From contig CM026426.1 of assembly GCA_014871385.1 (NCBI GenBank), positions 60,364,084 through 60,428,083 of the forward strand: a stretch of DNA of 64,000 bases, given 5' to 3'. The position numbers and the translations under genes are program-made. The notes below the pieces were generated by a model. The model saw only the letters and a list, made by a program, of their open reading frames with translations. It was not told the DNA's origin and made no database searches. Shown here piece after piece: positions 28,069-60,672 of this stretch (position 1 is its first letter; each line of letters begins with the position of its first letter). The stretch is from Ceratodon purpureus. Lineage: Eukaryota > Streptophyta > Bryopsida > Pseudoditrichales > Ditrichaceae.

Positions 28069-28277
28069 TGGATCAGGAGATCTTCGGATATAGAGTTGTT
28101 CCAAGACGGGGGAAATGTGTGGACTAAGTAATGTATACAACATTGTATGATTTGCAAGTCCATGGATCAGGAGATCTTCCGATATAGTGTCGTTCCAGAA
28201 GAACAAATGTATGGACAAAGTAATGTAATGAATAATGTGTGTTTTGCAAAACCATGGATCAGGAGATTTCCCGTTAT
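28069..28277 (+). repeat. Palindrome array P1 (three units, about 92-bp spacing)
   Basis: Variants of the G palindrome with core GGATCAGGAGATCTTCCGAT at about 28069, 28162 and 28253, with related spacers, just downstream of the FCP1-2 module. Confidence 0.8.
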
Positions 28278-28533
28278 AGGTGTCTTCCGGAAGAACAACA
28301 GCCATCTCACAATTGCACGAGTGAAATGGTATGGACAAACTAAGTAATATAACATTACAAGTAATACACATAGACCGATGATGGTGAAATAGTCATTTAC
28401 ATTACAAAAACGGGTTACATAAATATGAGGTATTGTCATGAAAGTCATTCGAATGAACAGTGCCATATTATTACCACTATACATTGTGGTACATAGGGAC
28501 ACGGGATTGTAAGCAAATCATTGTATGTACTGT

Positions 28534-29136
28534 CTACTGTTCTACTCTACTGGTGTACCATTGCCTAAGTGATCTCCTACATAATTCCCCATCCATGGAA
28601 GTTTTCTGAAGGAACTCAGTAACGGAGTCATAATGAACCAAATCCATAATGAATGGAAGTAAGGTTGTAACGACGTCTGGTATGACGTTTTGCGGATTAG
28701 GTAAGTGCATTTCACCCTTCCAAGGAGTCGGGAAATAGCAGGAATGATTTCCATTCATTACATTCTTCCATTCACAGTCATCTACCATGAGAACCTTACT
28801 CGGTTTGCAAAACCTGCGAGTTTTTTTATCCATACGAAGTCGTTGCGGGAACTTCTGGAAGAATGGATAAGGCTTCAGTCAAACACACTTGTCTTGACCA
28901 TACACAAAAATTAACTGCGATCTAAGCTCCAGTGGAAGCCGATGCGCTAAGACAAGGTCCAAGCGGGATGGGGGCATACATGACCATATTCCGACATGGA
29001 AATCTTGAAGAAGCTTCCGAAAGAACGGTCGAATTCCAGGACGGCAAATGACATTCTCTAAGTCTAGCAACGGCGGGCTGAATCCTTTATAATCCTCGAA
29101 GCACAGGACGCCATTAACCGAGAGAACTATCGCCTT
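28534..29136 (-). pseudogene. FCP1-type HAD phosphatase-like module, copy 2
   Basis: After acceptor GTGCAG the frame from 29136 encodes KAIVLSVNGVLCFEDYKG, CRPGIRPFFRKLLQDFHVGI, WSCMPPSRLD and IFVYGQDKC. Past an in-frame TGA (28879-28881, where Arg would fit) it continues with KPSKVLMVDDCEWKN. This order is that of the FCP1/SCP-like phosphatase fold in the plant branch that has DLNG instead of DLDG in motif I. Here motif I is SVNG, so the nucleophilic Asp is missing and the module is probably catalytically dead even if read through. No start codon is visible. It follows FCP1 copy 1 on the same strand, separated by an intron-like stretch with two palindromes. Confidence 0.7.
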
Positions 29137-29186
29137 CTGCACAGTTGAAATAAAAATATCAGGACATTTCTACATTTGAGACTAAA

Positions 29187-29257
29187 CATCGGGGGATCTT
29201 CCGATGTTTGTAAATGACGAATTCGCTAACATAGTTCATCGGGGGATATCTCGATGG
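29187..29257 (+). repeat. Palindrome pair P2
   Basis: CATCGGGGGATCTTCCGATG (29188-29207) and CATCGGGGGATATCTCGATG (29238-29257), between the two FCP1 modules. Confidence 0.85.
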
Positions 29258-29646
29258 CGCCTCCCAACGCCATGGCACACAGAGGTGGTCAGACCATGTC
29301 TTGAAAGAGTATTACCACAGCAAAGCAATTTTAAAACAAAACAAATTCAAAGTTCCAGGACTCCATTGCATTCAGGAAGACAAATGCAAATTTTTAGGAA
29401 CTTGGTTAGTTTCATTTTGCTATCAAACATGAGGGAGCTACAGCTTCATTACATGGTCATGTGAGAGAATGTATGTGTTGACAATGAAGAACTCTGAATA
29501 AAATGAGTGTTCCATAATCCAAAGCCATTTGTACTAAACTACAATCTTTGCTTCATTAAATGGTCATGTGAGAGAATATAAGTATTGACAATAAAGAACT
29601 GTGAAAAAAATGAGTGTTCCAAAATCCAGAGTCATTTGTACTAAAC

Positions 29647-30653
29647 TTAAGCGCCCCTCAATATCTCCAGTGCCAAGTCCGACGACCGGTCCATGGAGAA
29701 CTGACCAAACGGAAGCGGGGCCCGTTTCACATACTCTGGGACATCTTCCCTTGATCTGAATAGACCCTCCTGCCACGGTTTTAGTGTCATCATAAGAAAC
29801 CTATCATCACCATCCCCGGACCAGGTTGGGGGTGGACAACGTTATGAGGATCGTTGAGAAGGTTCTTCTGTGGACTATCATCCACTAGTAGGACTTCCTC
29901 AACAGCCTCCAATACCAGCAACTTAGCAAAGACACGGAGATCCTTTAGAAAGAACGGCTTGTCTGGTTTTGACGACTCGACGTATGACGAACGTATGCAA
30001 TCGTTCTGGCTAAGAACCTGCACATCCGGCAGTTGTAAGGAGGTGCCCTCAAGAACAACAGGAAGATCTTGAGGTATATTCCTAGGCGCGATGCTGGTCC
30101 AAAAGGCTACCGTTTCCTGATTATGAAGCCAGTTCAGAAATTCCTGGTAGCAAGGTCTGGTCATTATAGGGCGCTTTTTTCCCTTGACAAAATGCCCACG
30201 GTGAACCAGAACCCCGTTTAAGTCTAGTACAACCGAATACCTTCGACCGGGTACCTTTCCGATCACCTTTGCTGGAACGGAGGATGGGAGAGAGGGCCCT
30301 GGAAAATGCAACAAAAAAAGGTCTCATCAGAATTCAGCATCGGGAGATCCCTCGATACAGATGTCCACTGTAAACAGGTCTGATCAACATTCAGCATCGG
30401 GAGATCCCTCGATATAGATGTCCACTGAAGAAATGTCTCATCAGATTTCAGCATCGGGAGATCCCTCGATACAGATGTTTACTAAATTCCTCAAGCATCT
30501 ACGGGAGACACTACACGATCTACACATATTCAATCTGAGGACATGAAAACTATCAGTCCTACAATTAGAGTCCGACTAGATACCTTTTGCACTGTCGTCC
30601 GAATTCGGATCTTGGGCTTCCGATGAAATGCCCACCGTCTTAGACGTCGGCAT
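29647..30653 (-). pseudogene. FCP1-type HAD phosphatase-like gene, copy 1
   Basis: The ATG at 30653 opens a 70-nt exon (MPTSKTVGISSEAQDPNSDD) ending at donor GTATCT. Exon 2 starts at 30298 in phase. It encodes YSVVLDLNGVLVHRG (motif I, with DLNG as in many plant members), a cap-like region, VAFWTSIAPRN (the WTS motif) and VEEVLLVDDSPQKNLLNDP (motif with the acidic pair). One base is missing in the C run at 29828-29832. In the shifted frame the expected tail follows (SGDGDDRFLMMTLKPW to EILRGA, stop near 29647). FCP1-family enzymes dephosphorylate Ser/Thr residues such as those of the RNA polymerase II tail; the substrate here is unknown. The start overlaps the 3' end of ORF1 by a few bases in another frame. 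Confidence 0.75.
30338..30471 (+). repeat. Palindrome array P3 (three units, exactly 57 bp apart)
   Basis: CATCGGGAGATCCCTCGATA at 30338, 30395 and 30452 with closely similar spacers (GATGTCCACTG), all inside the intron of FCP1 copy 1. Confidence 0.93.
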
Positions 30654-32779
30654 CTGGTAAAGGTTTTTTTTCAAAATTATTAGTAAATGGGATTTTATCA
30701 TTATAATCCTTGTAAACGAACTCGTGAGCCTGTCTAACTGCTTCAATATGCTTAGCGCTGCGAGAGGGTGGGGTGTAATTCCCTCGCTGGAATATGTGCT
30801 GCCTTACCTGTTCGTCATGACTAGCACGATATCTTGCTAGAGTGCTTTTTCCCTTAGGCTCTCTCTCAGCGCTGGTGCCTTTTCCCTTCCCCTTGACTCC
30901 CATTCCGGTGCTAGGCCCAGTCTTACCCTTGCCTCGTGTGGCCGGGGGGCCGGATGTTGTTCCCAACGGAAGTTCCGGCGGAAGGGACTGTTGCAAATGC
31001 TTCAACCCCTTCTCTAGCACAAGTGAGCGACATTCACAATCTGCGTCCTTAGATTTCTCCACCACGACTGGATCTCGCTCAGTGGATACCTCCGTCAGTG
31101 CCTTGTCTGGGAGCCCTTCATATAAACCCGAGTTTAGCTCCTCCTCTTCCGAGTCTTTGTCTTTGACCTTGTCACATGCCTTCACATCGTCGCACACCAG
31201 GGCTTCCGCGTCGCATCTCTTCTTCTCCGGGCTCAACGCGTATAAATCCTTCAGAGTCTCGTCAACAACATCTTCGTTCATGTCAGGAGCCACGGGGGGA
31301 GACTGATGGGTCTCCCCGGGAGATGTAATCCGTGGGAGAGGAGGCGGGGGGCTGGATGGCAGAGGAGGCGGGGGGCTGCATGGGATCACAGAAGAAGCGA
31401 CGGACTGCGAACTCTGAGGACCGCACTTTTCAGCTACGGGGGGGTGATGGCTTGGATCAGGTGCAGTGCCTTCTATCATCGGGATATCTCCCAATGGTGG
31501 GATGCACGGTTCATGCTGAGTATCAGCTACTCCTCCCTCAGTCTCCTGCTCTTGAAGAGGAGAAATCCATTCCGGGTCCGCAGCATCCCTATCCGTCCCC
31601 TCCCTATCCCGATCAACTCCCGCGTCCTCCTCTCCTGCTGGTGCGAAGTCAGTATTTCGCGAAACCGCAGCGAAGTTCAGGACATTAAAGTCCAAGTCAT
31701 CCAGCCCCTCAGCACCCTCTCCCACGTCTCCTGCGCCACCTTCAGGATCCATAGTGTGAGTCTGGTGATCCACCGGTAATGTCCTCATATCCAGCAGCGA
31801 CCGAGCTACGTCCTTCGTGTTGCCCGACACAGTGGCAAGATCGCTTCGTGGCGTCAAGGACTCCCCCACGTGAGAATCATCAACGGTGTGTTCCCACGAC
31901 GCAGCTCCATTGTAAATGCGCGCGGAGTTCAGTAGTCCCTGCAATATGAGTGCAGGACACCATTAGCGGTAAGAAAAGCTGCAGTAGAGTAGAAATTGGG
32001 TTCAAGTATATGGTACATGAATACTACAATGCCTTGGAAGTTAACCCGAGGTGCAGTGCTAAGCAAACAAAAGAGAGGTGCCTTGCTCACAAGAATAGGG
32101 AATTTAGTCGTGAGGGGGATGTTACATGGAATAGCTAAGTTAAGGAAGCTTGAAACAATCCTTGGGAATGAAATAATTGGTTAGGAGATGAATAGCGTTA
32201 TTCAAAAATTAAAATACTTCATTTTCCATAATGGTATGCAATTTATGATACTTACAGAATGGTACAATTTCTTACGGAACGCCTATACAAGGATAGTGAT
32301 CATGCTAGATTTCGCCACTCTAGAAAACAACATGGTATCCCAAATTGGGTAGGCCCGCCTACGGTTCAAAACCTACCGAGGTGCAAGCCGTCTTCTCGTC
32401 GTCAGAGTTGGATTCGGAATCATCAGGCGGAGCTTGTCCGCAGCCATCTTCATCATCAGCCGCACCATCTTCATCATCACCCTCTCCACCGACTGCCTCA
32501 TCATCACCGTCGTCACCACCATCATTGGCTACCAATTTATCTGGGTCAACTGCATCCTTGTAAAGTATGTCCCATATCTGCTTCGACGTCTTCTGAGCGT
32601 GTTCCTTATCATCGTCAGAATAGATAACTTCAAGGACCATGGCTTCGTTTTCCTGTAGACATGCAGGCGATAAGAACATGCATGAAATGCGAACAGCACA
32701 CTCTAACCAAATGTTACGTTCAATTTCATTGCGTAAGGGTTCAGAAGTGTCGGGAACTGTGGTGCGAAGTGCATGATTT

Positions 32780-32859
32780 ATCGGGGGATCCCTCGATGAT
32801 TTGAGAACTCCTATACCGTCATTCTAGACGTTAACCGTCCATCGAGGGATCCCCCGATA
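32780..32859 (+). repeat. Palindrome pair P4
   Basis: ATCGGGGGATCCCTCGATG (32780-32798) and CATCGAGGGATCCCCCGATA (32840-32859) stand in opposite orientation within the intron between ORF1 exons 33115 and 32652, and can also pair with each other. Confidence 0.9.
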
Positions 32860-34525
32860 AATCTTGCATCCTTGAAGACATATCAGGAAACACTGAGGTT
32901 GAGAACAGAAAAGGACCTTTGACTTAAATTCTATATACGTGAGTGAACAAATGCATATATCGCAAGTACTATAAATGGAGAACATCTATATAATAAGCCT
33001 CAAGAACAACAGCCTATTCGCACAAGTATGAAATAAAGTGGAAGCATTTGAATCACTGAAAGAGAAATTTATAATATGACTTCAGCATTCGAAGGGTGCA
33101 GACAGAGTACTTACAAGTCCAAGGTGGGTGAAGTGAGCCCCGCCGTTGACATTTACGAGTACCATGTTATCTTTGATGTGCTGCTGAAAGAGAGTAGAAA
33201 GTGCGGCCAGCTTAATCGTTGGTCGACCAGGTCGTTTCCATTGCTGGATGGTTTCCGTAATGTCCTTGGCCAAGTACACTGCGTCAAATGGCCTCTTCCT
33301 CGCAAAGAAATCCCCGAAGCATTCCTTCGCCAACTGCATTTGCGAATAAGCGAAGCAGAAAATCATGTAGACAACATACAAAGAACCTACCTCTGGCTCC
33401 GGAAATCCGTCCTCGCGGGAAGGGACGTAGTGGACCACATGCCAGTTCCACAACCTCCTCTTTGCTGTCCTCGTGCGCGTTTCGATGTGCAATAGTGTCG
33501 CATGGAATCCCGCCGCATCTGTGAATAGAACTGCTCCTGAGCGTGCAAAGACCTGCGTGCTGTTTCGTTCTTGGCCTTCGAGAGGATCGAATATCCGAGT
33601 CAGCCTGTTCTCGAGCAGCACCTGAGCTTTCACTGGCATGTCAGCGATCGCATCAAATAGGAAGTACATGAATATGTGTACTTTTCCCCCTCCTCTCCAA
33701 CGATACACTTCTTCACTTCCTAGAATGACAGAAATCTCGAGCCTACTCCAGTCCGTATGCATGCACTTGTACTTCGTTTCGAACCTCCTCTGGATGTGCG
33801 ATAAGTAACTTGCTTGCTCTTGTACCATGTTGTGTGCGTCCCACATCACCTCAACAAAGTCAGGAACCTCCACAGGATCAGACGTCTTGTTGAGGTTCCT
33901 GTTTTGGTCGTCCAACCACTTCTTCCCCGCAGCCGTTGTATACGCCTTATCCAGCCAGCTCTCCTGATCCATGCGAGTGATGGACTTCGAATCGGCAAAC
34001 TCGTCCCATTCATGTGCATTATACATTACGTATGTGCTCTTACAGCTTGGAAGCTCCCAATGACAATAGTTGTTCATCAACTCGTTCTTCATACATCTGA
34101 TCAGTCTTTCCCTATTCCCTGCTATTTGAAGGGACGGTAATCTTGCCACTTTATCACCTTTGGTGGCCTTCGATCTCTTCACAAAGATTTCTTTCCTCTC
34201 CACAAGGTCAGCAAGGTAGTATATATCCTCTGAGCGCAGGCCGTATAGTGGTTTTAAGTCATTCTGGACAAAGGGCTTCCGCTTGAGGTCATAGTTTGTC
34301 TGCACATTCCCTTGCGCATCTGGCAGCTTCCCCTTCATGTATTGTTTCTCAATCTCCACCCATCGGTCAACGGCGGTGTCGTCTTCAAGAAACAGTAGCG
34401 GTATCTTGGAGTCCCTTAGCTCTGATTACTTCACGTTTGTGAAGATCGATGCGAGAGCTTGAGTAAATTGCTGCATACCACACGTCGGGGGAGGGATTAG
34501 TAGCGCTCTCCGATAAGGAAGTTGC

Positions 34526-34674
34526 GATCGGGGGATCCCCCGATGATGGGAAGTACGAGGAATACTCTAAGAGGCCATATACATTTCTACAACTTGGATC
34601 ATCGGGGGATCTCTTGATGACTTTGATACATAAGTACAGATATACAACTCGGATCATCGGGGGATCTCTCGATG
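34526..34674 (+). repeat. Palindrome array P5 (three units)
   Basis: Cores at 34526 (GATCGGGGGATCCCCCGATG), 34600 and 34655 with related spacers (ACAACTTGGAT / ACAACTCGGAT), inside the ORF1 intron 34695-34420. Confidence 0.93.
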
Positions 34675-36064
34675 AGGGAGGGAATACAGACTTACCAGAA
34701 ACTCTATAGGGTGTTGCCGTCCCTGTAAAGCTGGCATCGGGAACTTCAACTCTTTCCACTTGATTCTGGCATGGAGCACCTGCATCATGAATGTGTGCTC
34801 CTTCTGTGGGCCGGCCATATCCTGGTTTAGGACCGGTGAGAGGAGCATGAGCTTGATGTGCTCAGGCTTGGGCGCCCACACTGGGATGATTAAGAACTTC
34901 GACGCCTTGTCTTTGTCAGCCCCATTAATTTCCTCACTCTCGACGAGATCTCGGTAACACTGAACCGTATGCTGGCCCCCAATGATGAAGAAGTTCGTGG
35001 AGCTCTTGATCTGATTCTTGAAAAACTCTATGCGTTTATCTTCTCCATACGGTCCCTTTTTCAGTGGAAGTACAGTGATTTCTCTATCTGTTCCATTGTA
35101 CCTTGTAGCGATGCGCGCCTGTTCGTCAAGGCTTTTAATCTGTCCGGAATAAGTCCTCGGTAGACGATTGAACATGGAGGGGCCCTGTGTAGCTTTGAGA
35201 AATGCACAGTTATTGGCGCATCGTTCTCATCCTTCAGCCTCATGGCCCCGCTTGTACAAGGGTTCGAACGCCTCGCTGTACAAGTTCTTCATCTCTGTCT
35301 GTTTGGTCTTGTCCAGCTTCTCAATATTCGAAGCTGACATTGTCACACACTGCTGAAGAGTGAGCTTGTCATCACCCTTTCCCTTCTTGCCCTTCCCTGT
35401 GTCCGGCACCGCAGTTTCCTCGTCATTGATCAAGGAAGATTTTTGTTTTGTGCCCCGCGTCTTGGTAGGAGTACACGCAGTCGGAGCCTGCGATGGAAGA
35501 GGAGCAGCAGCTGCAGCCTCACTTCGCGCCTTGTCGATTAGGTTTTACTGATTTTCAATATGTGTCGGAATCTACTTCGCCTTATCCTCCGGCAGGTACA
35601 TGAACCCCTTGGCAGTGAGGGATTCACACTGAATCAGGTTGAGCTTGTTGAGGTCGAGGATGATTGCATAAGTGACAGTCCGATCGGACTTCGGGATCTT
35701 TTCCTCCACCACTATGATAGCTGTCTCCGCGTCAAGGCCTTTCAGTTCGAGACCGTTCAATTTGATCGGGGAATGGATCCTCCCTTTAAAGGTGAGATGG
35801 GGGACAATGACGGCCATGCCTCCTGCCGTATCTTTCCACGACATGGCCCATACGGTGACGTTCTTATTGCAGCGGTAGATTGCGTTGGGATTTGATTCAC
35901 CATCAAAATTGAAGCCATGGATCCAACTATCGATAAAGGGAAACAGCTTCACGGGTCTATGGTCACTTGGTGGTTCGAATACTTGTTGTTCCCTGCAGAA
36001 CAGACATACATCACTGTTGGTCAAATTCCTCCCCCAAATCAATTAACAGTTATAAAAATCAGAT

Positions 36065-36454
36065 CATCGGGGGATCTCTCGATGACTTCGATTCATATAC
36101 ACGCATGAGGGGCTATGCGCATTACTTACAGGACAACAACTCTCTTGGAGGACCATAGAAAGGAGCATAGGCACAAAAGGGCACTGAGGTCATCGAGAGA
36201 TCCCCTGATGTTCTGCCATACCCACAGGATGGGAAGGGAATACCAACACATCGAGGGATCCCCTGATGGACCAAGGATATGATACCTACGCATTAGGGGA
36301 TCCCCCAATGGCTTGCCGTTCCCACAGAATGGGAAGGGGATACTGACGCATCAATGGTGATTTCAAGTGAAAAGGTCATCGGGAGATCCCCCGATGGCTT
36401 GCCGTTCCCAAAGAATGGAAAGGGAATATTGACGCATCGAGAGATCCCCCGATG
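36065..36454 (+). repeat. Palindrome array P6 (six units)
   Basis: Cores at 36065, 36191, 36249, 36291, 36377 and 36435. Spacers share GGCTTGCCGTTCCCA and GAATGGGAAGGG words. The whole array lies in the first intron of ORF1 (36777-35993). Confidence 0.93.
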
Positions 36455-36830
36455 GACCAAGGACATTTTATTCATGCATCAACGGATCACTGAAGTTTGT
36501 TACACTGTCCGTACAGTGTATTGTGTTGGGAGAGGTTCTCTGGTCCGTACAGTTTATGTTCAAAGCTTAGGGTTTAAAGTAAATAAGAGCTGGAGCTGGG
36601 TTTATATGGATGTGGATACTCTACGGAAACTAATAACAATACCAAGAGAATGCTCCTCAGAGCACCTCTATTAATGTTGCTCTTCATTATAAGACGGACT
36701 GGGACTACTGCATTTCCAAATGTGATAAAGGAAAAATGTCACTAAGCATAGAATTTGAGATTAAGAAAAAAACTTACGAGTCCTCCCAGATTCTTGCGGT
36801 CCCTGGCCCTCTGGATGAACTGCCTGCCAT

Positions 36831-37465
36831 AGCTGCCTGCAAACTCTGCACGGCGAAGGCACGATGCACGGGAAATTGGAAACAAAAAATGAGAATGAGA
36901 AATAAAAGAAGAGTTTAGAGGAGCAAACACTGTGACAAATTTTAAGTTCACCTCCCTCTACTCGTTCCGACAATGCAAGTAACCATACCAACGCATAAGA
37001 AAATAAGAGTTATGCAAGAGATTGGCAACTGCAAACACAATAGAGTAGACACAGACCCAATTGACCAAAGAATGTGCGCAAGAAGTACCTGCAAATGCAG
37101 TCGCAGGTGGAAAACCCCCGATCCGCTGCTTCGTCTTCCTTCTCAAATCCCGCTCCGACGATCCGATTTCCTTGTCCGCCCCAAAAGCTCCCAAACACCT
37201 CCCAAATGCCTGAAAAAACACCTCTCACTCGCCTCCCAAACACCTCTCAATCGCCCTAAACCGAGAGGAAAAGAATTACTCGCCCTAAACAACAGAACCA
37301 GCTCTCAATCGCCCTAATCCTCCCTCGCAAATCGACACACGGAAGCGAATTTCCACGACGACCTAAGCCCCTCGACAGAGAATGTTGTGGAAAGCGAAAC
37401 CGACAGTCGCGGGAGACGAGCGACCCACAGCAAGGTGGCGCGAAAGCGAGGTACTGCGGAAAAAC
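36831..37465 (-). promoter_or_regulatory. Probable promoter and leader of ORF1, cut from the transposase side by CACTA-2
   Basis: Upstream of the ORF1 start the minus strand is GC-richer with TTAGGGCGA words, as in plant leaders. ORF1 (-) and the transposase gene (+, from 53232) diverge from this point once CACTA-2 is removed, so the original element probably had a shared divergent promoter. No exact signals were assigned. Confidence 0.35.
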
Positions 37466-37632
37466 ACTCACTAGTGGGACAGGCGTTCACCATGACCAGC
37501 CAGAATGACCGTAACGATTCCTGGTCGTCTAATGAGTCAGGCGAAGGGCCGTGATTGGGCAATATAAGGGCCCTGTGACAGTGGAGCCAAAAATTTCCGA
37601 GTTACTATGTAGTGTAATCGCAATGCGAATTC

Positions 37633-37661
37633 GCCCTACACAGTTTGGAGCTGTGTAGGGC
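37633..37661. repeat. Perfect hairpin near the left end of CACTA-2
   Basis: GCCCTACACAG, a 7-base loop, then CTGTGTAGGGC: an 11-bp stem without mismatch, about 160 bp from the CACTA-2 terminus. Function unknown. Confidence 0.85.
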
Positions 37662-39178: not shown

Positions 39179-39628
39179 ACATGGGGACATTGGTAAGTCA
39201 ATTGCGACCACAGAATACTTATAATCATACGTCAGACATCAAGTCCAGTAACAATGTACAGAATAGGTGCTCTCTAAATACTTCTCCGACCTCTGTGTTC
39301 AGCATTGGTATATTAGTATTCTAAAAAACATGACATATTGAATGCGTACTGTAAATATTTAATAGTTTAGATTAAGTGTATTACTTGTCTTTCCAAACAG
39401 AAATGAGGGAAACCGAAGTGGACAAATGCATGCTACCCTTAAAGGAGGGCGAGAAATTGATGACTCCTGCCTCCTCCGAGTAGGTGCTGGGGGGATTGCT
39501 ACTACCTGCACAAAAGCACACGCGGGTGACGGTTTCGAGGTCAATTAAATAAATGACGTGCATGATTTTGGAAATTAATAGTAAGAGCCTGAATTCCATA
39601 TCCGAATATGAGGGAAGACATTGCGAGC

Positions 39629-40572: not shown

Positions 40573-40668
40573 GACATGCAAAATTTTAGTGAGTTCAGAA
40601 ACAAACCCCCTACCGGAGGCATCTGCATGGACTGTCCATTGGGATTGAGTGGTCAATTTGAGAATAAC
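40573..40668 (-). other. Orphan exon-like unit in CACTA-2
   Basis: 96 nt between a good acceptor (ATCACAG) and donor (GTAAGT) give 32 open codons including VHADASGRGFVSELTKILHV. It looks like one exon of a captured host gene; the family is not recognised. The remainder of 40169-41711 is AT-rich without other clear genes. Confidence 0.3.
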
Positions 40669-48900: not shown

Positions 48901-51775
48901 ATGGCGCACCTGGGGACCCTTTCCGGATCTGATGATTCATCACTCCTCTATACCACATCTTTAGATAGTGAGTCTCAAAATGATTCAGCTGATTCTAACT
49001 GTCTGACCTCAAAATCTGTTCCTTGCGCAACTGTGATACCTCCTCGCGGGACAGTCTCTACTGCAATGGCGTCTTACCTAGGCAGCAACGCTTCAATGTT
49101 TCCAGCCCACGCATTGCACGAGGGAGATCTCGGTCGAGGAATCTCAACTCCAATTGCGCCGAACTCTCAGGTAAAAGCAGGCTTGTGCATCCTATGTTCT
49201 GCCGTAGCTAATTAGGGTAGAGCTTCGGTTTATTGCACTCTGTTGTTTTCCTTTTTGAAGAGGAATACTTGGTCGTACATGCAGAAGGTCGGTTCTAATG
49301 GAGCCGATGTATTACCGAACGATGAACTGTATTTCCCTACGTCATCTTGCAATGTAGAATAACTACCTTTCCGAAGATGAATATCGCTGCGATTTAGATG
49401 GCCTCGAAGAAGGGTGGCGTCCAGATGGGAGTTTCTCAGATGGAGAACACCAACATGTACTGCGGAACAGCTCGGTGCCACTTCATCGAGGTCCAAGTGC
49501 ATCTGCTATGCGGTGGAGCACAGAGGTGGGTGGACCATCGAATTCTCAGAGACCCTCGAGGCCGGAATCCTCTTTCCAACACTTGCCTACCTCCCGGCAA
49601 CATTTGACCTCGACACCCGGCGGTTCCTTTGGCAACGACAGAGCGGACATCTCTGGTCGCACAGTTTCTCAACCTGAGATGTTAGAAGAGAATTGGCGAT
49701 GCACCCAAGACGAGGCTAACAAAAGAAGGCGGATACAACGGGGATACACAAAGCCGTACTTGGCTGAGATGGCAAATGCACATGCAGAGGGTCGATCTCC
49801 TACCATCCATGTGCCAACTACCACAACAGGTAAGCCAATGGGGCTTAGAAGTGCCTGGCATAGACAAGTCAGACTCATTGCCAGACAAAGCATGGATCAA
49901 ACAATAAGAAGTTATAGAGGAAAGAAGGGCACATGGTGGAATTCAGTGAATAAAATATATAAGGCTCTAGATGATATTTTCACATATGACTACCCTTTGT
50001 GTGCTAATTACTTGTCGAAGTTCCTGAAGAGTGCTGTTAAGAATGATCGCTTAGAGTGGAAAGAGTATTTTTTTCACAGTAAAGGCAAACAGCATGAGAA
50101 ATGCCCGGATGAGGCATTTGGCACACTTCGGAAGTACTGGCTTAGTGTCGCAGGTAAACGGGAATCCGAGCAGATGGTTGCCCTTAGAGCTCTCGGCCCG
50201 CAAAAGTCAAGCAGCAATGGGAGTCAAGGGCCACTCTCATCGAATGGGCATTATGATATGGTAATGAACATTTTAATTTTGTTTCATTGAGTTTAAGACC
50301 GTTCAATTATTATGCTCATTATGTCGTAGAGGTGCTTTGTTACTCATGACAGCATCTGTAGAGTCCTGATCAGGGCTTGGAGAATCGGCCACCCATCCAT
50401 GACGGCACATTCCCAAGTTCGTCGTCTCTTCCTTCCAGGAGCACCGTCAATGGGGGAAATACGTTTCCACAATCCACTAGTGCTAGGGGGGGTTCAACGA
50501 TGGATTCCGCGCATGACTTGCCATTTCAACGTGAAACAACAAATCCACACCCGTCGGTAAGTTTCCAAAGTTAGCCTTCACCTGCTTCTGCTTCCATGAT
50601 TATGTTATATCATTCGCTAATGATATTGGGAACCTAATTGTGATGATGTGTAGAGGAACAGCACACCAGAATACAGACGAAGTAATCAGCCCCGAAGTAA
50701 CACCCGTGAGGACTGTACGCGTGTTCAAGAAGGAGACACTACTCGAATCAGCATGCTGGAGTCGCGAGTTGGAGATCTAGCTACTCAAGTAACGCAAAAT
50801 ATTTCCGTGGTCGAGGAGGTTTTGAACACGCAGCGTGATTTCAAGGTAATGCTCATGCGACTTGTGGAATCCTCAGTTCGACAACCGGCGATGTCAATTC
50901 ACCGAACTGCTGAAAATCAAAATCAAGACGAGGATGAGGCAAGGGGTGCAAATCTGTACCATAACGAAGCATTAGCACCGGACGGCGTTCATACCTCCGC
51001 CCCCGGTCAATGCCCCCAACCGACCCTAGAGCAAGTTCAGCGTAACGTAGAGCGGGAGCTCGTGATTGCAGGCGTGGATCGGGGTGCTCAATCTCAGCCG
51101 TCGTGGATGAGCGCGGATACAGTATTGCTTACCCCTAATCGCCGAAACAATCTCCGTCCGTGACGCGGTCTTGGGCATGACATGATCACGGTGAGCACAG
51201 ATCTCTCTGGCCATTCGTTAGCGACTGACAGCGTGAATGGCAGCGCCTCGCAGCACGAATTTGCGGCACCGGAATCCAATTCGGACGTCACAACTGGAGC
51301 GCAAATTCGGCCAGGTAACGCACCTACCCTCCCCACACTCCAAGACCCCTTTCAAAGTATCCATGGAGCGGTACATATGTCGACAAGAGGAAAGAGCTTG
51401 GCCACCGACACAGAGACAACTGGTCAAGACCCGCGAGTCACGAATATGAGTCTCAAATTTCCACCTCGACCTCGTGGGGACGCACTTGCTGTCAACAAGC
51501 TATGTTACATCTCTCATCCTGATGCTGGTGATGACGCCATTGCTGAAGGGAAAACTGGAGGAAGTTGGAAGGCAAGAGCACAGAAGTTCGGGCACTTGTG
51601 CGACCCTGGCGAGCAAATGGTACAAATACACAGAGTCCTCATCCCTCTCCACAGACTGCTTCACTTAGAAGACAGACAACCTTTCAAGACAATAGACGAC
51701 GCGGTTGTAAAGGCAACGGGATCGAATGTGTACATCAAGTGGGACACAAAATACCTCCACAAGAAGACGGGGTAA
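48901..51775 (+). pseudogene. Second CACTA gene (TNPA/Ptta-like) of CACTA-2
   Basis: The ATG at 48901 opens an exon to 49170 (donor GTAAAA). A large exon runs to about 50262, then 50374-50556 (acceptor GATCAG, donor GTAAGT) and 50654-51775. The second exon contains a stretch (YDYPLCANYLSKFLKSAVKN, EKCPDEAFGTLRKYW) that resembles the plant transposase Ptta/En-Spm ORF1 group. The last exon has a coiled-coil-like segment (MLESRVGDLATQVTQN) and ends VYIKWDTKYLHKKTG before TAA-TAG-TAA. A TGA at 51161-51163 (after NNLRP) lies in frame. The exon 1 to 2 junction was not resolved, as the obvious acceptor is out of phase. In En/Spm the second protein binds subterminal repeats and assists the transposase. 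Confidence 0.6.
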
Positions 51776-52199
51776 TAGTAATCTTCCAGCGGATTGCCAT
51801 GATGTAGATGGTAACATTTGTGTACTGAGTGACGATAAGAAGTCATTTGTCTGAATTCATAGTTGTTTTCCACTGCATGCTAGTATCTTGTCAGTGATGG
51901 CAATTTAATTGCACGTACAAGGTGGATGTTGCGGTCTTTGTCCCCAACGCAATGTCAAATCTATTAGGCGTTTATGTTGCATCTCGTGATTCTGTATGGA
52001 GGGACAAATTCCTAGCGAATATCCCGACACATCCTGGAATAAAATGGATACGTGTTATACAACGACTGTCCTGTAGTGTAGGAGCAATTTTTCATTGAAA
52101 ATGAGTGGCTTTGTTTGTTTCCTTTTCAGCCGCAAAGAAATTACCAGATTTATAGGGAATACAATCTCCAGCATGCATCACCATGCATGCAGAACGTGG
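51776..52199. other. 3' flank of TNPA-like gene
   Basis: No gene seen. Confidence 0.4.
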
Positions 52200-52877
52200 C
52201 AGGTACGGAAATGAACGGCCAGAATTAGGCACATTTCAGCGTCCAAAACTGACCGGAAAGATATCCACGACCCGAAATGCATACCCGGCATCCGGAAACA
52301 ATACTGTACCCGGGTGCAATAACCCGGCATCATACCCGCGCATCCGGATATGTGCGGCTGATACCCTTGGTTATCAACACTCGAAGTCAAGAGGCATATG
52401 AACCGGTCAAGATAGATATCCGGTCTGCTTATACATCTGTTTAGATCCGGAGCTTAATACCCGTATCCCTCAAACTAATGCACCGGTCTCCATATAGTAC
52501 ATAGGTAAGTACAACCGGGCATGCATCCCATGCGATTCATGTCCAGGCGCCATTCAGTTCAGGATCCGAGTATCCCGTAACGGCGTACATCCAGTTCAAA
52601 TCATCCAACGGAGTTCCCAAAAATTACAAGGTCACTTTTAAACTGACATTTACCCACAGCTACTTGGTGGGACCTCGAGCGAATCACGCCCTTGACAGCG
52701 GCACTCGCAGTAACACATTTCCGAGGGTAAACTCCATTCTGCTAGGTCCGATTTAGCATGCCCAATTTGACCGAAGTTCTCTTGTGACGACCACAAATTG
52801 TTTTCAGTCACCTGCTTCGATCCTGGTCATGAACGTGGTCGCTAAGCTGGTCGTCCAGTACTCCCCTTACACTAGTG
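52200..52877. repeat. CACTA-2 right subterminal repeats and terminus
   Basis: ACCCGG, CATCCGGA and ACCGGTC words recur in both orientations between 52200 and 52560, and GACGACCA/TGGTCGTC near 52785-52855, before the terminus at 52870-52877. Confidence 0.65.
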
Positions 52878-52880
52878 ACT

Positions 52881-53231
52881 CGAGCGACGCCATCTTTGCA
52901 TTGTACAATGGAGAACTTAGTACCATATTAAAAAAGAAAACGGGTTAGCACGTTCTTGGAAGAGAACGACGTACATTAAGGGGCACCAATCTGTGGCTCA
53001 TGAGTGCATGCAGTCAATTGAAGTGACCCCTTGATATTAATTGGAAATTAATGAACAATGGAAAATGAACAAAGAAAATAGAAAATTAAATTGGATATTC
53101 AGAATAACGAAAAAATATATATAAAATAGAATGAAGTGAATCAAAAGAGTTTTATGGGATTACTTATAAAAGTAAGTGGGAATTAAAAAATATGAAATCT
53201 AAAAATAAAAAATAAAAAATCAAATATAAGA
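52881..53231. other. Element G sequence upstream of its transposase
   Basis: AT-rich except for the first 120 bp. It contains an imperfect inverted repeat around ACGTTCTTGGAAGAGAACG (about 52951). Probably the promoter side that faced ORF1 before CACTA-2 inserted. Confidence 0.4.
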
Positions 53232-54035
53232 TTGGGCGAGGGATACATTGGAGTGACAATCCTCGACGTCTTTGTCGGGGACACTGATGCCATAATGAGT
53301 AATGAGCGTTGGTTGATATCTGAACGCAAATTCCCCAACGGCCCTTCTCTTCGGTCAACAATCGAGCACTTCTCCCGAATCCCAATGGAGGTAGATCTAC
53401 ACGAGCACCTTGGAGGCAGACGGAAGGAACCTTACCAGTTTATAGTGCGGAAACCTAAAACGCATGAAAAACGTTTGATGTACAATACGAAGACAGCGGA
53501 TGCTGAAGTGAGGAAGGTTAGCTCCGAACGATGCTGCTCGAAGCATTTTTGTCAGACATTTCCCCAGGAGCTCACACTAATAGTGCGTAAGAAATTCTAT
53601 TTGAAATCCTTTCAGCGAAAGACGGGAATACGGGATTGCGGCGGGTGGACAGATGCATTCAGTCGACGGTGACCGTAGGAGGAAGTACTTGACGCTGCAT
53701 GGTTTGGAAGTTTGCGCAACTGCGTGGTATCTTATTCACGGAGTTCCCAAGTCAACTTTTCATAGCTATGTCCAAAGATACAACGAAGGGGTTCTCTCAA
53801 CAGCGCATGGAAACAAGGGCTACAAGCGACCGAGGATCGGAACAGTTCAAGTCATGGGTACTATTGCTGCTATTGTAGACGAGAATGCTGATCAGATGCC
53901 CCATCAAATGCGAGGAATCGCAAATGGATGAGTGGACACTCTGAAATACCTTCCAGCAGGCAACAACTGGAAGCGAGTGATGGCTGACGCCAATGAGGTA
54001 TGAGTCTTTGCTTCGCATTTCTTCTAGTGTCATTG

Positions 54036-54055
54036 CATCGGGAGATCTCCCGATA
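54036..54055 (+). repeat. Intronic palindrome in the G transposase gene
   Basis: CATCGGGAGATCTCCCGATA, inside the intron that starts GTATGAG and ends TTCTTATAG. Confidence 0.9.
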
Positions 54056-54861
54056 GTGGTTACTTTCGTATTGACAGTCTGTTCTCTTTCTTATAGTATC
54101 GTTGAACTCTACCTACGTCATGCAATATATAACTCTTTTTCCCCTCTTCAATGATTTGTCATAATCTGTCGTGTACTACTTCGAGCTTGTTCGCTTGCGT
54201 GCGTCTCTTTCTTTGCGTCACCAGCCATTTGAACGTACCGGTGCTTTGCAGACAAATGTTTCATTGGGTCTGCCTACAGTGAGCCAGTCTACAATTAGTA
54301 GAATTAGAAGTTCACACTTCAACAATATCGCAATCAAACCGGTTGGAAGTTCTTTTGCAAAATGCTCGACATGTGACCAACTTCAAGAATTCATTCTGAA
54401 GTCAGCTAACGGAAGTCCAGAATATGTTGACTTCGTGAAGCAATGGGAGGAGCATCTTGCTCACCAAGCCTCTTGTCGTTGTCTGTATGGTGCATGGCGC
54501 GAAGAATCAAAGCGCAATCCCAGTGAGATTCTGTGCATTATTCATGACAAGATGGATACTGCAAAAACCGCCCTTCCCCGGATGCGGGTTACAACAAAGG
54601 CTACTCAAGGTTTGGGCCAACTTCCTATGAACGTCACTGGTATGGTTTCACATGGGCACGGGGATGGCGCCTATGCACATTACTGTCCTCAGTGTTGGCC
54701 AGGAGATCCTAACGCCACAATATCGTCGTTGGCGAGGCTGTTCCGTCGACTGGAAGGCCCCTCATTTCGGGAGTCTCGGAAACTATTTGAGTACCCCCAG
54801 CAAAACTCACTGTTCGAGACATTGTTGAGGGGAAGTCCAGGTGCCTCGACATTTTACTGCG

Positions 54862-54881
54862 TATCGAGGGATCCCTCGATG
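54862..54881 (+). repeat. Palindrome in a putative 47-nt mini-intron
   Basis: TATCGAGGGATCCCTCGATG directly after a GT at the end of the block GASTFYC. Skipping GTATCG...CCGAG (54860-54906) restores the LYLQLDN frame. Confidence 0.8.
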
Positions 54882-56212
54882 TCCAAGGGTCTAAACCTTT
54901 ACCGAGGAAGTTATACCTTCAACTGGATAACTCCGCCAAAGATAACAAGAACCAATATCTCATGGCATTTCTCTCCCTGCTGACTGCACGGGGTGTTTTC
55001 AAGGAAATTCAGGCTGGATTTCTACTAGTGGGTCATACGCACGAAGATATTGACGCTTATTTTAGCCATTTGTCGAAGGCATTAAAAAGCAAGAATACAT
55101 TTGTTCTAGCGGATCTAATGAAGGCCTTCATGCAGTCCTAGGAGTTGTCATTCATGCCGGAGTTCATTCAAGAGGTTGCAGACTTCAAGTCTTTCATCAA
55201 AGGCTATCAAAGTAGTGGTGGAGCACGCCTTATTGGACTTGGAGAGATGCACCTTTTCAAGTTCTATGTGGACAATGATGGTTGGCCGGTTATGAGGTAC
55301 AAGAAATCAGCCGTCAACCCACAATGGCTACCCCTCAACAGACCCCCTATTCGATTGTGGAATGAAAACATGGATGGCGGCCCAAAACTTCCTCACGGCT
55401 CACCAAAGCCGGTTCCGTTCAAACCTATGTGGGGAAGTGAGGTTCCTAAATCTACTGGGAATCAGGTGAAGGCGAGAGAGATCGTAGCCAATGCTACTGA
55501 GAACAAGAAATTCATGAAGTGCGGACTCCAAAAGTACATTGAGTACTGGAAAAATGGAATGGCAAAATGCGAGGGATTTGCAGCAGCTTTTGGGCCTTAT
55601 GTTGACTACTAGACTCGTTTGTTGTTTGAGCTTGATAAGCCTCTGACAGTGACAAATCCTGAATTGTTAGAGGTTTTCTGGCCAAGCCATGACTGGAGGG
55701 CCGTATCCAACGAAGTACCGCGCCCAAGATTTTTACAATTTTTACTTGAGGATGTGACTCTTGAGGATGAGGAACCAGAAGCGTATTGTGGCCCAGCAAA
55801 CCAAGCTCCGAAGAGTCCTTTCAACCCCTGGCGTGATATTCAGCCTGGCAGCTGGGTTCTTTTGAGACCAAAAGATCCACTCATTTGTCTTGTATGGCAG
55901 GGAAGAGCAGCGACTGCTGTATGCAGAGAGGAAGGCCATGTAAACCATGGGAAATTTCTAATTCAGTTTTGGGAACCTTGTAGCGTTGAAAGAGACCTTG
56001 CATTGAAATACCGTAACTATTGGTCTACTTAGTGGGTAGTAGAGACGTAAGCTCCGGAGTGGGTCTCTGTTGGTGCAGCTTTGTTTCAAAGTTGGTCAAA
56101 AATCAAAGACCCGTCTACTAGAACCATTCCTAAGAAAGCTATGGAGGCTGCTTTAGCAAACTTAGAGAGAGCTAACGTAGTTGATCCATGATCTTCTATG
56201 CCACTTAGGAAC

Positions 56213-56350
56213 GACAGAGGGTCATCCCTCGATGATTACGTCTGAGTCACATGTCTTCCTCATTCTCTATTAAAGAAATAAGAGTCATCACTGCTTGACC
56301 GTTTCTCATCCCCGTGTAATATCATCCTTCCTCGTGTCAATGATGTTTGT
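56213..56350 (+). repeat. Direct repeat, copy 1
   Basis: About 135 bp from CCCTCGATGATTACGTCTGA to AATGATGTTTGTTTCTG is repeated almost unchanged at 58695-58827. Both copies begin at a half or whole palindrome of the G type. Confidence 0.9.
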
Positions 56351-57539
56351 TTCTGAGATTTCTGACACTTTAAGAACCAACACGATCATGAATGCGCAAC
56401 GTGGAGACTGATTGTGGAAGCAGATGGAGTAGTGGGAAACTGGAGGAAGCAAGTAGAAGCTTTTAGAACAAGGGGGGAAGGAGAGAAACTGCAGATTCAT
56501 ACGCCCAGTTCATTTGGTGTCGATAAACTTGAACTCCGGGCGTTCTGTTCAGCAGCAACTTTGGCAGCGGCATCGCCAGCAACGCAAGTTCCGGAGCAGG
56601 TGAGAGCAATGCACACATACAGGGGCCATGGCCAATCGACTTGAGTTTTTAGTTGAAATTCTGATCGTTGCGTTTTTAGTTGTGTTGGTATGTCAATAGC
56701 TATTAAACAGCGTGTCCGCATGTTTTTACAGTTTGAGTCATTCAGAAGTTCTGTATCAGGTGAGACTACTTGATATATTAGAGTTGAACAGCTATAGTTT
56801 GCATGTGATTCAGGACAACATAGAAGAAGGAGATCAAGCTTTTGTCGCTAGTTTTTGGAGCTGATCAGCAGGGCTGGGCTGGTTCTGTTGAGCACCGAGA
56901 CTGTTGGGTTCTTGAGCAATTAGCAACACGAGTCATTGAGACGTTGTGTATCAGGTGAGATTAGCTGGTGTATTAGTTTCAGCAGATATGGTTGGCATGT
57001 AATTAGGTTTTGGTCCACTGGAGTCGTCGTTTTCCTAATACATATGGACATACAATGTCGACAGCCTGATCCCACTGTATGTTGTTGCATTTTTGTCTAA
57101 GTTTTATCACTGTTATCGTGACGAGTTGAGCGGGTTTCATTTGTTGAGGTAAAGACGCAGTTGATTGATGTGTACTCGAGACATTTGTTGGGCTACTTGT
57201 TAACGAATTGGTTGTTTGTTTGAGGGGTAATATTGATAACACATGTCGATCGAATACTTTTGTTGAGGTGGAAATTTGCCTAAGTGCTGCGATGAACTTG
57301 TAGTTGAAGGGTTTAGTGTTTAGGGTTTAGGATTTAGGGCTGTGAAGGTGGATTTACATTCATATACATCATGTGTTTCAGTTGAAGGGTTTGAGACAAC
57401 ATATCTTGTCATGAGTTTTTTAGTTTCTTTGAAGTGTGTTGTGGTTATTGGTTCTTTCGGATCTGGTTTCATGAACTTCATGTGGGTCTAGAATTTTCTA
57501 ATATTTTTTTTTTGAATTTTTTTTCTACAGGTTACAGGT
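56351..57539. other. Region between G transposase and accessory ORF
   Basis: Short open frames only. Repeated TATCAGGTGAGA words occur near 56755 and 56950, and a telomere-like TTTAGGGTTTAGG at about 57318. It may hold small non-coding leader exons of the ORF at 57540 (acceptor TCTACAG at about 57530). Confidence 0.4.
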
Positions 57540-58106
57540 ATGGAACAGGATCCGATTCTCTAGAAGGGGAAGATGAAGATTAAGGATGGTTCAACCTCCC
57601 AGAAGGATCCCGAGTTGGTCTTCAATGGAGATTGCGAGCAACCAGAGCTTCCAGTCTGGAAAGATTCAGCAGCAAGGAGAGGAAATGAGTTTCAATTCAT
57701 GAAAGATGCACCTGTGAAGCTGCCATGCCTACGACATTGGCTGAAGGATGTGGCCAAGTTTCAGGAGACAACAAAATATGAAGTACCTGAATTCGACAAA
57801 GTTTCGGGGATGGTTTCTGAAGGATGGGATGGAACTTGGAACGACATAGCTTTGAGGCAATTTGTGGCCGTTGCAAATGCAACTGGGGTGATGCACCCTC
57901 CAAGGAACAAGAAGAACCAACTCACTTACATCAAGAATCAGGTCATTTCTGTCAAGAACCACCTCATGGAGACAATGGAGACAGAGCCAGCTCCAGCTCC
58001 AATAGTGCCAGCTCCGACAGTGGCAACTCCGAAAGTGACTGGATATTCTTTCGCCAAATATCAAGCAGCCATCAACAAAATTGAAGAAAACCGCAAGGAC
58101 TTGTAA
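57540..58106 (+). CDS. Accessory ORF of element G, unrecognised
   Basis: ATG at 57540 just after an acceptor-like TTTTCTACAG. The frame has one TAG eight codons in (MEQDPIL-stop-KGK) and then is open to TAA at 58104, about 188 residues. It contains WLKDVAKFQETTKYEVPEFD and GWDGTWNDIALRQFVAVANA, a low-complexity PAPAPIVPAPTV run and the end AKYQAAINKIEENRKDL. No domain recognised. Same strand as the transposase, so possibly a downstream partner gene. The Met after the TAG (57573) is an alternative start. Confidence 0.5.
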
Positions 58107-58951
58107 TTGTGGTGGATTCTACGAGGAGGATTTTACTTCTGATGTAGCGGATATGTTGTAGTCAGAGACTTCAGGTGCCATTGAGGCAGCTTTTGTAGTT
58201 CTATGTTTCAGCGGACATGTAGTAGATTTTCTGGAAAAACATTCCTACTGTTCTCGTTCTCTAGACAATTCTGTACTTTCACAGACTTCAGTTGCCATTG
58301 AGGCCGGTTTTGAATTTTGAATAGGAGACATGAAGTTCTCGTAATAGTAAATTCTCAATCTGTAATGGTGGTTGTATGAGCACGGTTACTTGAATTTGTT
58401 GAATAGGTTTGAATGTGTGAATATCGAAATGCACTGGATCGGCAGGACGTAATAGACCGAGTGCAAAATTAAAATAAATTAATTCCTCAAAAAACACAAA
58501 CTAACATCGTACAGAAAATATCGTCGCACACCAAAACTGTTTAAAGTTTTTTGATCGGAGATCCTATGTGCTGTTTAGGTACGACATCGGGAGATCCCAC
58601 GACGAGTCCGTCTGAGTTAATTCTCTTCCTTCTGATCGGAGATAAGTTTTTTGATCGGAGATCCTATATGCTGTTTAAGTACGACATCGGGAGATCCCTT
58701 GATGATTACGTCTGAGTCACCTGTCTTCCTCATTCTCTATTAAAGAACGCCCTCCTCATCACTGCTTGACCGTTTCTCATCCCCGTGTAATATCTGCCTT
58801 CCTCGTGTCAATGATGTTTGTTTCTGTATGAGTTTCATTTCTGCTTCACAGTATAATATGCCCCCTCATAAGCATAAGTTCCTTAGCGCGACGATATAGT
58901 TGTTCCAACTTCAGTTTCCCTTCTGTTTCATCTGCTTCTAGTTCATTTGCC
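58107..58951. other. Non-coding region of G with palindromes and duplicated blocks
   Basis: Palindromes at 58585 (CATCGGGAGATCCCACGACG) and 58685. The block 58545-58625 recurs at 60155-60240, and 58695-58827 repeats 56213-56350. No gene seen. Confidence 0.7.
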
Positions 58952-59290
58952 GTGATGAGGAGGGCAGGCGGTGGTTTTAGGGTGTCAAGTTACCCGCCAG
59001 ACGAGTGGGAGCCGGTTGTTTGGCCACAAGGAGTGGAGGAGCTTCGTCCGTGGTTTATGGCGGTGGAACGCGCCTGTGGTCGCGGCGTAGCCATTCCCCC
59101 GTGGAACCGCATTGCACGCCTAATGCAGCCTGGTGTGGAGTGGGTTTGGACTCTTGCACATGGTCTAGAGCAAGTGGAGATTATGAACGCTTCCGACATC
59201 AAGTTTCCCCTCACCTCCGGGGAGGTCGTCTCTATAGCTAATTCAAATGAGGAGGAGAGCGGGGATTTGGGGAGCCCACCACATCAGTGA
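58952..59290 (+). CDS. Small accessory ORF of element G, unrecognised
   Basis: A 112-residue open frame ending in TGA, starting MMRRAGGGFRVSSYPPDEWE and containing GVEELRPWFMAVERACGRGV and SGEVVSIANSNEEESGD. The Trp- and Pro-rich composition suggests a folded small protein. No family recognised. Downstream of the transposase on the same strand. Confidence 0.4.
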   Translation: MMRRAGGGFRVSSYPPDEWEPVVWPQGVEELRPWFMAVERACGRGVAIPPWNRIARLMQPGVEWVWTLAHGLEQVEIMNASDIKFPLTSGEVVSIANSNEEESGDLGSPPHQ

Positions 59291-60064
59291 CGAGGTGAAA
59301 TATTATCTCCTCGTAACCCTTAACCTCATCCTTTGTTTGATGTTTTCATAGTAATAGATTACGGTTGCTGTATGTCTTGCACAGAATTCCATTGCTGATG
59401 TTGAGTTCGTGGTGAGTGTCAAGGAGATGAGTCTGTGCTTTCGACCTGCACTTGTCGGTTTTAAACCCTAAACTTCATACCATCTGATCCTCTTTTTCTC
59501 TTTGCTTCTGAACTTGCAGGCATCTTCCATATACTCCACATGTTTAACTTCTTACTGCTAATCAGCTCAGATATCAGAAGGGGACTTTAGCAAGTAGTTA
59601 GCAAGACCGTTATATCCTATGATGTTTGGTAACCATAGATGTAAAAACAGATCACTTTCATGTTTTCGCAACTCTTGCCGAAGGTGTCCTCCATGTGGGT
59701 TGTAAACTATTTTTTGAATGGAATCCCTTCAAAACAGAGTTGCTTTGAATAAAAAACACAGTTTCGTTTGATGCTTTCATATTTGTATATTTCGTATTCT
59801 AATATTTCCATGGTTTAGAATAAATTTAGTAGTAGCAAGTCTAGAATAGTTTCAAATCTGCTTCACAGTATAATATGTCGGTCATGTTTGATATTGGGGT
59901 ATTGCGTGAAAAATACTTTCGAGCCCGCAGGCCCTGTACCTGATTGTATGTTCGCCATGTGATATCCCATTCAACTCTGACATCGCGGGATCCCCCGATG
60001 AATGGTAGAGTACTTCCGAGTCCACATCTCTTCCTCTCTTCTGTGGGTCACTGTTAAAACAGTG
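59291..60064. other. Non-coding region of G
   Basis: Short frames only. One palindrome at 59981-60000 (CATCGCGGGATCCCCCGATG). Confidence 0.5.
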
Positions 60065-60150
60065 GTGTATGCAACTTCGTCGTGGATCATGGATCCGATG
60101 AGTAGAATCATTCCCAAGATAGCCATGGAATATGCGTTAGCTAATGTATA
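60065..60150 (+). pseudogene. Fragment resembling the C-terminal tail of the G transposase
   Basis: The frame SSWIMDPMSRIIPKIAMEYA-LANV parallels WSKIKDPSTRTIPKKAMEAA-LANLERANV near 56097-56190. It lies in a zone of duplicated 3' sequence and palindromes, so it is likely a relic of an internal duplication or of another copy. Confidence 0.6.
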
Positions 60151-60672
60151 GGGAGACAAGTTTTTTGATCGGAGATCCTATGTGCTGTTTAGGTACGACA
60201 TCGGGAGATCCCACGACGAGTCCGTCTGAGTTAATTCTCTTCCTGAGTTAATTCTCTTCCTTCTGATCGGAGATAAGTTTTTTGATCGGAGATCTTATAT
60301 GCCCCCATCTCTTCTATTCATTTGTATTACCCTAATCCCAATGTACGTAAATCTCGGTCAAGTTGGCTGCTGCGGATCCCGTGATGAACAATTAATTGGA
60401 TCAATGAATAATAATAAAGCAATTATGTCGCAATGTACATATAATTATCTGGGTCAGGTTTGCTATCGGGGGATCTCGTGACACATACTCTGGAGCCCAA
60501 ATGTCCTCTGTTCTTTAATATCTCGCTCGCAGTTTACTTATATCTTGGTCAAGTTCGGTGTCGAGAGATCCCGTGATGAATACTTCTGAGCCCCTCCACG
60601 ATGGTTCTTCCCATACATTGTTACGCCAATGCACTAAATTTATCAGGTCTATTATCGGGTGATCACTTAATT
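60151..60672 (+). repeat. Duplicated 3' blocks with palindrome variants
   Basis: Copies or variants at 60199 (CATCGGGAGATCCCACGACG), about 60377, 60463 (TATCGGGGGATCTCGTGACA), 60560 and 60654. The AAGTTTTTTGATCGGAGATC block occurs here and at 58545-58570. Confidence 0.8.

Follow-up and report, generated by a model that had tools for sequence, protein, structure and literature searches.

Why does one large transposon repeat the same short palindrome along its length when the DNA on either side of it has none, and what would read these repeats? The question is raised by a 64-kb stretch of the moss Ceratodon purpureus genome (C6:60364084-60428083; "the window," whose coordinates are used throughout), in which a terminal inverted repeat (TIR) element, G, occupies positions 27936 to 60711. 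C6 (110.5 Mb of a 362-Mb genome) is probably the V sex chromosome; a review gives 360 Mb, with U and V each above 100 Mb (PMC8000587). An initial annotation had found about 25 copies of a 20-bp palindrome in G and had suggested that it could be bound as a dimeric site by a protein that the element encodes, act as an RNA hairpin or in splicing, or be a mobile mini-repeat. By analogy with transposons that recognize their own DNA, we consider it probable that the palindrome is a family-specific, dimer-type DNA site with two half-sites, belonging to giant DUF7869 transposons and bound by a protein of the element itself, with self-recognition as the likeliest role.

The palindrome was counted in the window with three patterns: CATCGGGGGATCCCCCGATG with up to six mismatches, and YRTCGGGRGATCYCCCGAYR and CATCGNGNGATCNCNCGATG with up to three each. 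The first gave 28 places between 28165 and 60578. The second gave 26 matches against 0.04 expected, and none of 100 shuffles reached 26, which bears out the count of about 25. The third gave 25 sites, 17 of them in 27936-37470 and 8 in 52874-60711, with none in 1-27935, none in 60712-64000, and none in the CACTA element nested at 37471-52873. Every match in the window thus lies inside the one TIR element, and the site-free nested CACTA is an internal negative control. The sites and landmarks of G are as follows; entries without a strand are unstranded, and exon borders are inferred rather than transcript based.

27936 to 27961, plus strand: left TIR of G, inverted repeat with 60686-60711 (25/26 identical), preceded by ACAA (4-bp target duplication)
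28069 to 28298: left subterminal array, 92-bp unit x2.5, with the site present only in degenerate form
29187 to 29256: two sites (29187, 29237), noncoding, between both FCP1/NIF-like exons
30314 to 30478: three sites (30338, 30395, 30452), 57-bp unit x2.9, noncoding, in a minus-strand gene block
31477 to 31496: single site within a predicted coding exon of a 440-amino-acid proline-rich/acidic open reading frame (ORF; minus strand)
32779 to 32859: two mutually inverted sites (32779, 32840), noncoding, 3' of ORF1
34526 to 34674: three sites (34526, 34600, 34655) in a predicted intron of ORF1 (reading frames and GT/AG)
36065 to 36454: sites 36065, 36191, 36249, 36377, and 36435, plus 36291 on a deletion joint, in the 5' noncoding or intron region of ORF1
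37469 to 52877: nested CACTA, CACTAGTG ends, ACT target duplication, free of G sites
54036 to 54055: single site in a transposase intron (inferred)
54862 to 54881: single site within a transposase coding exon, in frame in the full copy
58544 to 58730: two sites (58585, 58685), 100-bp unit x1.9, 3' flank
59981 to 60000: single site, right noncoding part
60199 to 60218: single site, right noncoding part
60464 to 60578: degenerate sites (60464, 60559), right subterminal
60686 to 60711, minus strand: right TIR of G, 26 bp, followed by ACAA

The conserved form of the site is YATCGRGRGATCYCYCGATR. Tandem units of 57 and 92 bp had been reported and were confirmed, with a unit of 100 bp in addition; other adjacent sites in the window are spaced 50 to 126 bp apart. 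No common helical phase was apparent by eye among adjacent sites (spacings of 36 to 134 bp). The columns flanking 23 window sites hold little shared information, and since these sites were chosen by their match to the 20-mer, it is the emptiness of the flanks, not the information within the 20-mer, that counts as a result. Beside the palindrome, the right-end repeats at 58544-58730 and 60160-60300 carry a further repeated motif, TTTTTTGATCGGAGATCCTAT.

The motif proved to be specific to G within our genome-wide sample. The 20-bp form CATCGRGRGATCYCYCGATG has 1,092 exact matches in the genome and its reversed control has none; a 14-bp core allowing one mismatch has 1,031 matches, against 87 for its reversed control. 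We listed 50 of the 1,092 exact matches in genome order, covering the whole of C1 and C2 up to 16.86 Mb. They form five clusters. The stretches fetched contain 45 of these places, all of which align to G; the other five are in the part of the third cluster beyond the 3 kb fetched from it. Likewise, all 14 listed places with a perfect 14-mer (13 fetched and one in the window) are in G copies, and all 19 stretches fetched at motif places (16 places) align to G. Five control stretches had no site at two mismatches or fewer; one match at three mismatches (L022) looks like chance and was kept in the site statistics. The initial annotation had named a motif equally common outside G-type elements as a refuting result; the places sampled gave no support for this. 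In a viral contig collection, the exact motif has two places, around one of which 301 bases were read.

Would a related family carry the same palindrome? A second DUF7869 protein of C. purpureus, P0010, marks a sister family, H, with at least 153 matching genome pieces (exons counted). H stretches at C2:18518000-18534000 (L032:1-8500 and L033:1-6301) hold 25 copies of a different inverted repeat, GTCGGC-N5-GCCGAC, at one mismatch or fewer in 14.8 kb, of which 1.9 kb is N. An array of a 74-bp unit x7.3 lies upstream of the H transposase. Three more H copies (L034 to L036, 5 kb each) have 10, 13, and 10 sites, with array unit number varying between copies, for a total of 58 sites in 29.8 kb over four copies. 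Shuffling gives 0.01 sites per 8.5 kb and the reversed pattern 0. The G site was absent from the fetched stretches of the four H copies, and the H repeat was absent from 31 other sequences, including the G stretches fetched to that point; the specificity of the H motif rests on these 31 sequences and the four copies. One H site encodes VGCPPTD in the transposase. Across the 58 sites, the pair at positions 7 and 11 is G-A in 29, T-C in 20, T-A in 6, and G-C in 3, and both G and H sites usually have unlike halves at their degenerate positions. The Physcomitrium protein P0009 contains VGGPPI and IGGPPT peptides, which we note as a lead only. Judged from sequence, G and H appear to share the same layout with different inverted repeats, a pattern that joint change of protein and site would produce.

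We next consider the copies of G and where in them the sites lie. G ends are ATGCCATATT with a 4-bp target duplication; GTTG stands at either end of a second copy (C6:47026207-47042784). The window copy is not full length. Relative to the full copy, it has lost about 8.6 kb at a joint near 53228, and with it the transposase N terminus and an array of ten sites immediately upstream of the transposase. The full copy shows an empty site at the position of the nested CACTA. Two copies read end to end have about 25 to 38 sites, the majority internal. At two or fewer mismatches at fixed positions, the full copy has 37 sites, 35 in noncoding DNA and 2 in coding DNA (P = 9e-6, with approximate exons). 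They lie in ORF1 and FCP1 introns and spacers, in a transposase intron, in the flanks, and in the ten-site array, whose sites are 36 to 50 bp apart and which immediately precedes the predicted transposase start. The subterminal repeats at both ends have degenerate forms. The placement in introns and flanks given by the initial annotation therefore holds for most sites but not exclusively, since 31477 and 54862 sit in predicted coding exons. The 31477 site is in the open 440-amino-acid frame and is kept in the other copies covering it. The 20 bp at 54862 code for part of a 17-residue linker, which has 16 residues in the four closest relatives compared and is more varied in length in distant ones; in the full copy the 20 bp are in frame. 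The site therefore belongs to the coding part of an open transposase exon and is not an insertion. A reading of these 20 bp as a frame-breaking insertion was rejected, because the break in the frame lies about 30 bp further upstream, and the alignment of relatives and the full copy show the 20 bp to be coding.

Which protein could bind the sites? The genes of G are as follows.

29790 to 30323, minus strand: FCP1/NIF-like phosphatase exon (PF03031, E = 3e-9)
33082 to 36042, minus strand: ORF1 main exons, no known fold assigned, candidate binding protein
53228 to 56191, plus strand: DUF7869 transposase gene, truncated and broken in the window copy, 5' end at the joint of the 8.6-kb loss
57564 to 58106, plus strand: small element-encoded protein, 180-amino-acid open frame (216 amino acids in the full copy), no Pfam match

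By its sequence, the G transposase is a member of the DUF7869 family. The window piece scored 22.5 bits against PF25273 (DUF7869), under the curated cutoff of 26, while a read-through transposase query shared 79% identity with P0001 across 95% of the searched region, and P0001 matches PF25273 with an E value of 7e-45. No relatives of the G transposase were found in viral, prokaryote, and plasmid collections. The candidate binders are ORF1, the N-terminal part of the transposase, and the 216-amino-acid protein. A "GGQHTV" stretch raised the idea of ORF1 as a ParB protein, which was rejected for want of Pfam support; Pfam found no ParB domain in the pieces scanned, and no DUF1985 match was found among the G pieces scanned, which represent part of the exons. 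The region 28600-30323 encodes two FCP1/NIF-like phosphatase domains, an unusual cargo for a DNA transposon.

An element-encoded protein would most likely bind the G site, and this binding would distinguish the element's own noncoding DNA from all other DNA. The likeliest outcome would be self-recognition that keeps G expressed or hypomethylated, with its ends prepared, much as VANC does for VANDAL elements and TNPA for Spm. The sites would multiply by tandem duplication of the surrounding unit and then be kept by selection. Of the explanations offered by the initial annotation, the dimeric binding site is the best supported, in that the motif is family specific, conserved, and dyad symmetric, with a different dyad in a related family. 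We infer binding, the identity of the protein, and an effect on silencing from what is observed: family specificity in the sample, conservation, position, the lack of covariation, and the H motif.

A related explanation is that the transposase itself binds the sites for transpososome assembly or titration alone, with no role in silencing. Degenerate sites 92 to 95 bp apart at both ends would suit this, internal or subterminal transposase sites exist in other elements, and the transposase has a candidate DDE-like fold with a long N-terminal region. However, cleavage sites would need the opposite of what is seen: the best matches are internal (upstream of the transposase and within introns), and those at the ends are the most degenerate. 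We regard this explanation as unlikely. We are more doubtful still that a host protein, either a transcription factor or a silencing factor, reads the sites. A promoter element could well take the form of arrays close to the start of the transposase, but the 45 fetched places are all in G, the sister family in the same host has another motif, and the motif of a host factor is seldom restricted to one transposon family.

To ask how the sites behave over time, we compared the left part of G in 11 aligned copies, many of them partial, with 18 window sites shown. Sites are kept or lost jointly with their surroundings, and whole tandem units come and go. With one near-identical copy (L015) excluded, divergence is 0.049 in sites, 0.111 in the same noncoding stretches, and 0.091 in exons; at CpG it is 0.067, 0.190, and 0.134, respectively. 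Sites picked in a given copy are bound to look conserved there, and we therefore repeated the comparison without the reference copy, which gave 0.059 in sites and 0.122 in flanks, with the same direction for 10 of 10 references. A site that is perfect in one copy was still perfect in another in 540 of 745 overlapping comparisons, against about 160 expected from local flank divergence. The site at 32779, outside the tandem arrays, showed zero divergence. The best reading of these data is that G sites would be kept by selection. One site-like sequence, at 36291, is unique to the window copy among the 11 and sits on a deletion joint between two sites; from this origin of 36291-36310, G sites may act as recombination points.

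The same alignment bears on the proposal that the palindrome is a mobile 20-bp mini-repeat inserting by itself. This would account for the same 20-mer in unrelated flanks. However, gain or loss of a site always involves the DNA around it, and the rows shown for the 18 window sites, many of them partial, contain no clean 20-bp empty site. In addition, none of the 45 fetched places is outside G, and the coding linker at 54862 is just one residue longer than in the four closest relatives compared. We find a mini-repeat very improbable.

Next, we examined what type of signal the site might be, using 202 sites (182 distinct) with L001 to L006 and L015 left out. Only 8 of the 182 distinct sites are perfect 20-mer palindromes, so the claim that the palindrome itself is conserved holds for the 20-bp site but not for exact palindromy. 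Although left open in the search pattern, positions 6 and 8 are purines (94% and 97%) and positions 13 and 15 are pyrimidines (99% and 96%) in the 182 sites. An RNA hairpin or intron splicing signal might be expected from an inverted repeat that can pair and from the many sites that are intronic by inferred gene models. However, there was no compensatory change at opposite positions: Watson-Crick pairs occur at the two free pairs in 48/182 and 57/182 sites, fewer than the 87 and 90 that independence of the positions would predict, and A-C combinations are frequent (56/182 each). This lack of covariation argues that the sites are not RNA hairpins, and sites are found outside introns too, in exons, in the subterminal repeats, and upstream of the transposase gene, which makes a hairpin or splicing role barely credible. 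The initial annotation had named variants that do not preserve symmetry as a refuting result. This is partly borne out by frequent breaks at positions 6/15 and 8/13, which speak against a hairpin but are compatible with two alike half-sites. At least three of the four free positions are changed in 6 of 202 sites, against about 30 expected; this deficit fits an affinity threshold that two half-sites together would have to reach. As for passive satellite-like DNA, in which tandem duplication and gene conversion would spread and homogenize the motif without function, arrays do grow and shrink by whole units, but spacers differ and decay while the 20 bp persist, and non-array sites such as 32779 are conserved too, leaving this account hardly tenable.

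Several observations weigh against a self-recognition site bound by an element protein. ORF1 has no Pfam match, and its structure model was poor (predicted local distance difference test score of 31) and was not used. As noted above, many sites depart from strict symmetry, and unlike halves exceed the expectation under independence, for which a simple homodimer gives no explanation; as the sites are related, we claim no significance for this excess. Since the motif was used to pick the copies, any with few motifs would have escaped notice. The 36191 site does not exceed its surroundings in conservation, and taken one at a time most sites miss the 5% level. Together with their surroundings, 34600 is missing in five rows, 36065 in three, and 30338 in three of those covering it. 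All sites are related by descent, so that counts of sites and copy pairs are not independent, and conversion can homogenize array units, which lowers divergence too. Finally, two sites are in coding exons, whereas VANC21 bound its own exon probes poorly in the experiments described in the cited part of that work (PMC5735166).

Elsewhere in the window, 7142-7345 is a perfect 22-bp tandem repeat (9.3 copies, 100% match) that is apparently very young, and 2501-14440 is a long ORF block, MULE (Mutator-like element)-like by eye, with a possible Ulp1-type C-terminal part.

How does G compare with known systems? In the open-access literature searched (titles, abstract starts, and top-ranked results), there was no description of DUF7869 or of this motif system. 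MULEs make target duplications of 8 to 11 bp, and Sola elements make 4-bp duplications. ParB/parS systems mark a DNA element with repeated palindromic centromere sites, and G resembles them in layout alone. Compared by description alone, G is like Sola in being a moss cut-and-paste element with a 4-bp duplication; a table in a review gives Sola1 for Physcomitrella (PMC9033089).

The closest comparison is with VANC proteins and VANDAL elements. The sections of the VANC study used here give YAGTATTAY as the VANC21 motif and AGTTGTCC/AGTTGTAC as VANC6 motifs, and they describe VANC21 motifs as variable tandem repeats in VANC21 and VANB21 introns and upstream of VANA21 (PMC5735166). RNA-directed DNA methylation (RdDM) targets noncoding regions of VANDAL elements, and the overlap of RdDM and VANC targets is stated in a heading (PMC10398659). 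G is alike in that its motif is enriched in the noncoding DNA of one family, with none elsewhere among the 45 of 50 listed places (of 1,092); its tandem repeats vary in unit number between copies; its sites are in introns and upstream of the transposase gene; and the related families G and H have different motifs. Unlike the 9-bp VANC21 site, the G site is a 20-bp dyad, and G is a moss DUF7869 transposon with a 4-bp target duplication, not a MULE, with two sites in coding exons. We did not file G as a VANC system because it is not a MULE and DUF1985 is unmatched in the scanned pieces.

In Spm, the subterminal repeats bound by TNPA vary from one subfamily to another (PMC2613891). G resembles Spm, and also Tgmt* and Tam1, in having repeated motifs that differ between subfamilies, with a putative binding protein on the G side. 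Spm motifs are subterminal, whereas the best and most numerous sites of G are internal and its ends are degenerate. CACTA elements have a 3-bp duplication, in contrast to the 4 bp of G.

Taken together, we tentatively propose, at something short of even confidence, that moss DUF7869 transposons evolved their own self-marking, or anti-silencing, independently of VANDAL. In each family, a private palindrome would saturate the noncoding DNA and a transposase exon and would be read by a co-evolving element protein, with one strong and one weak half per site. If true, self-addressing by a private motif would not be peculiar to Arabidopsis VANDALs and would also have arisen in another superfamily, in a bryophyte. 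G and H in one genome would then be a ready pair for studying the co-evolution of a transposon protein and its sites, and the family motif may serve as a genomic tag for finding copies, the sex chromosome included.

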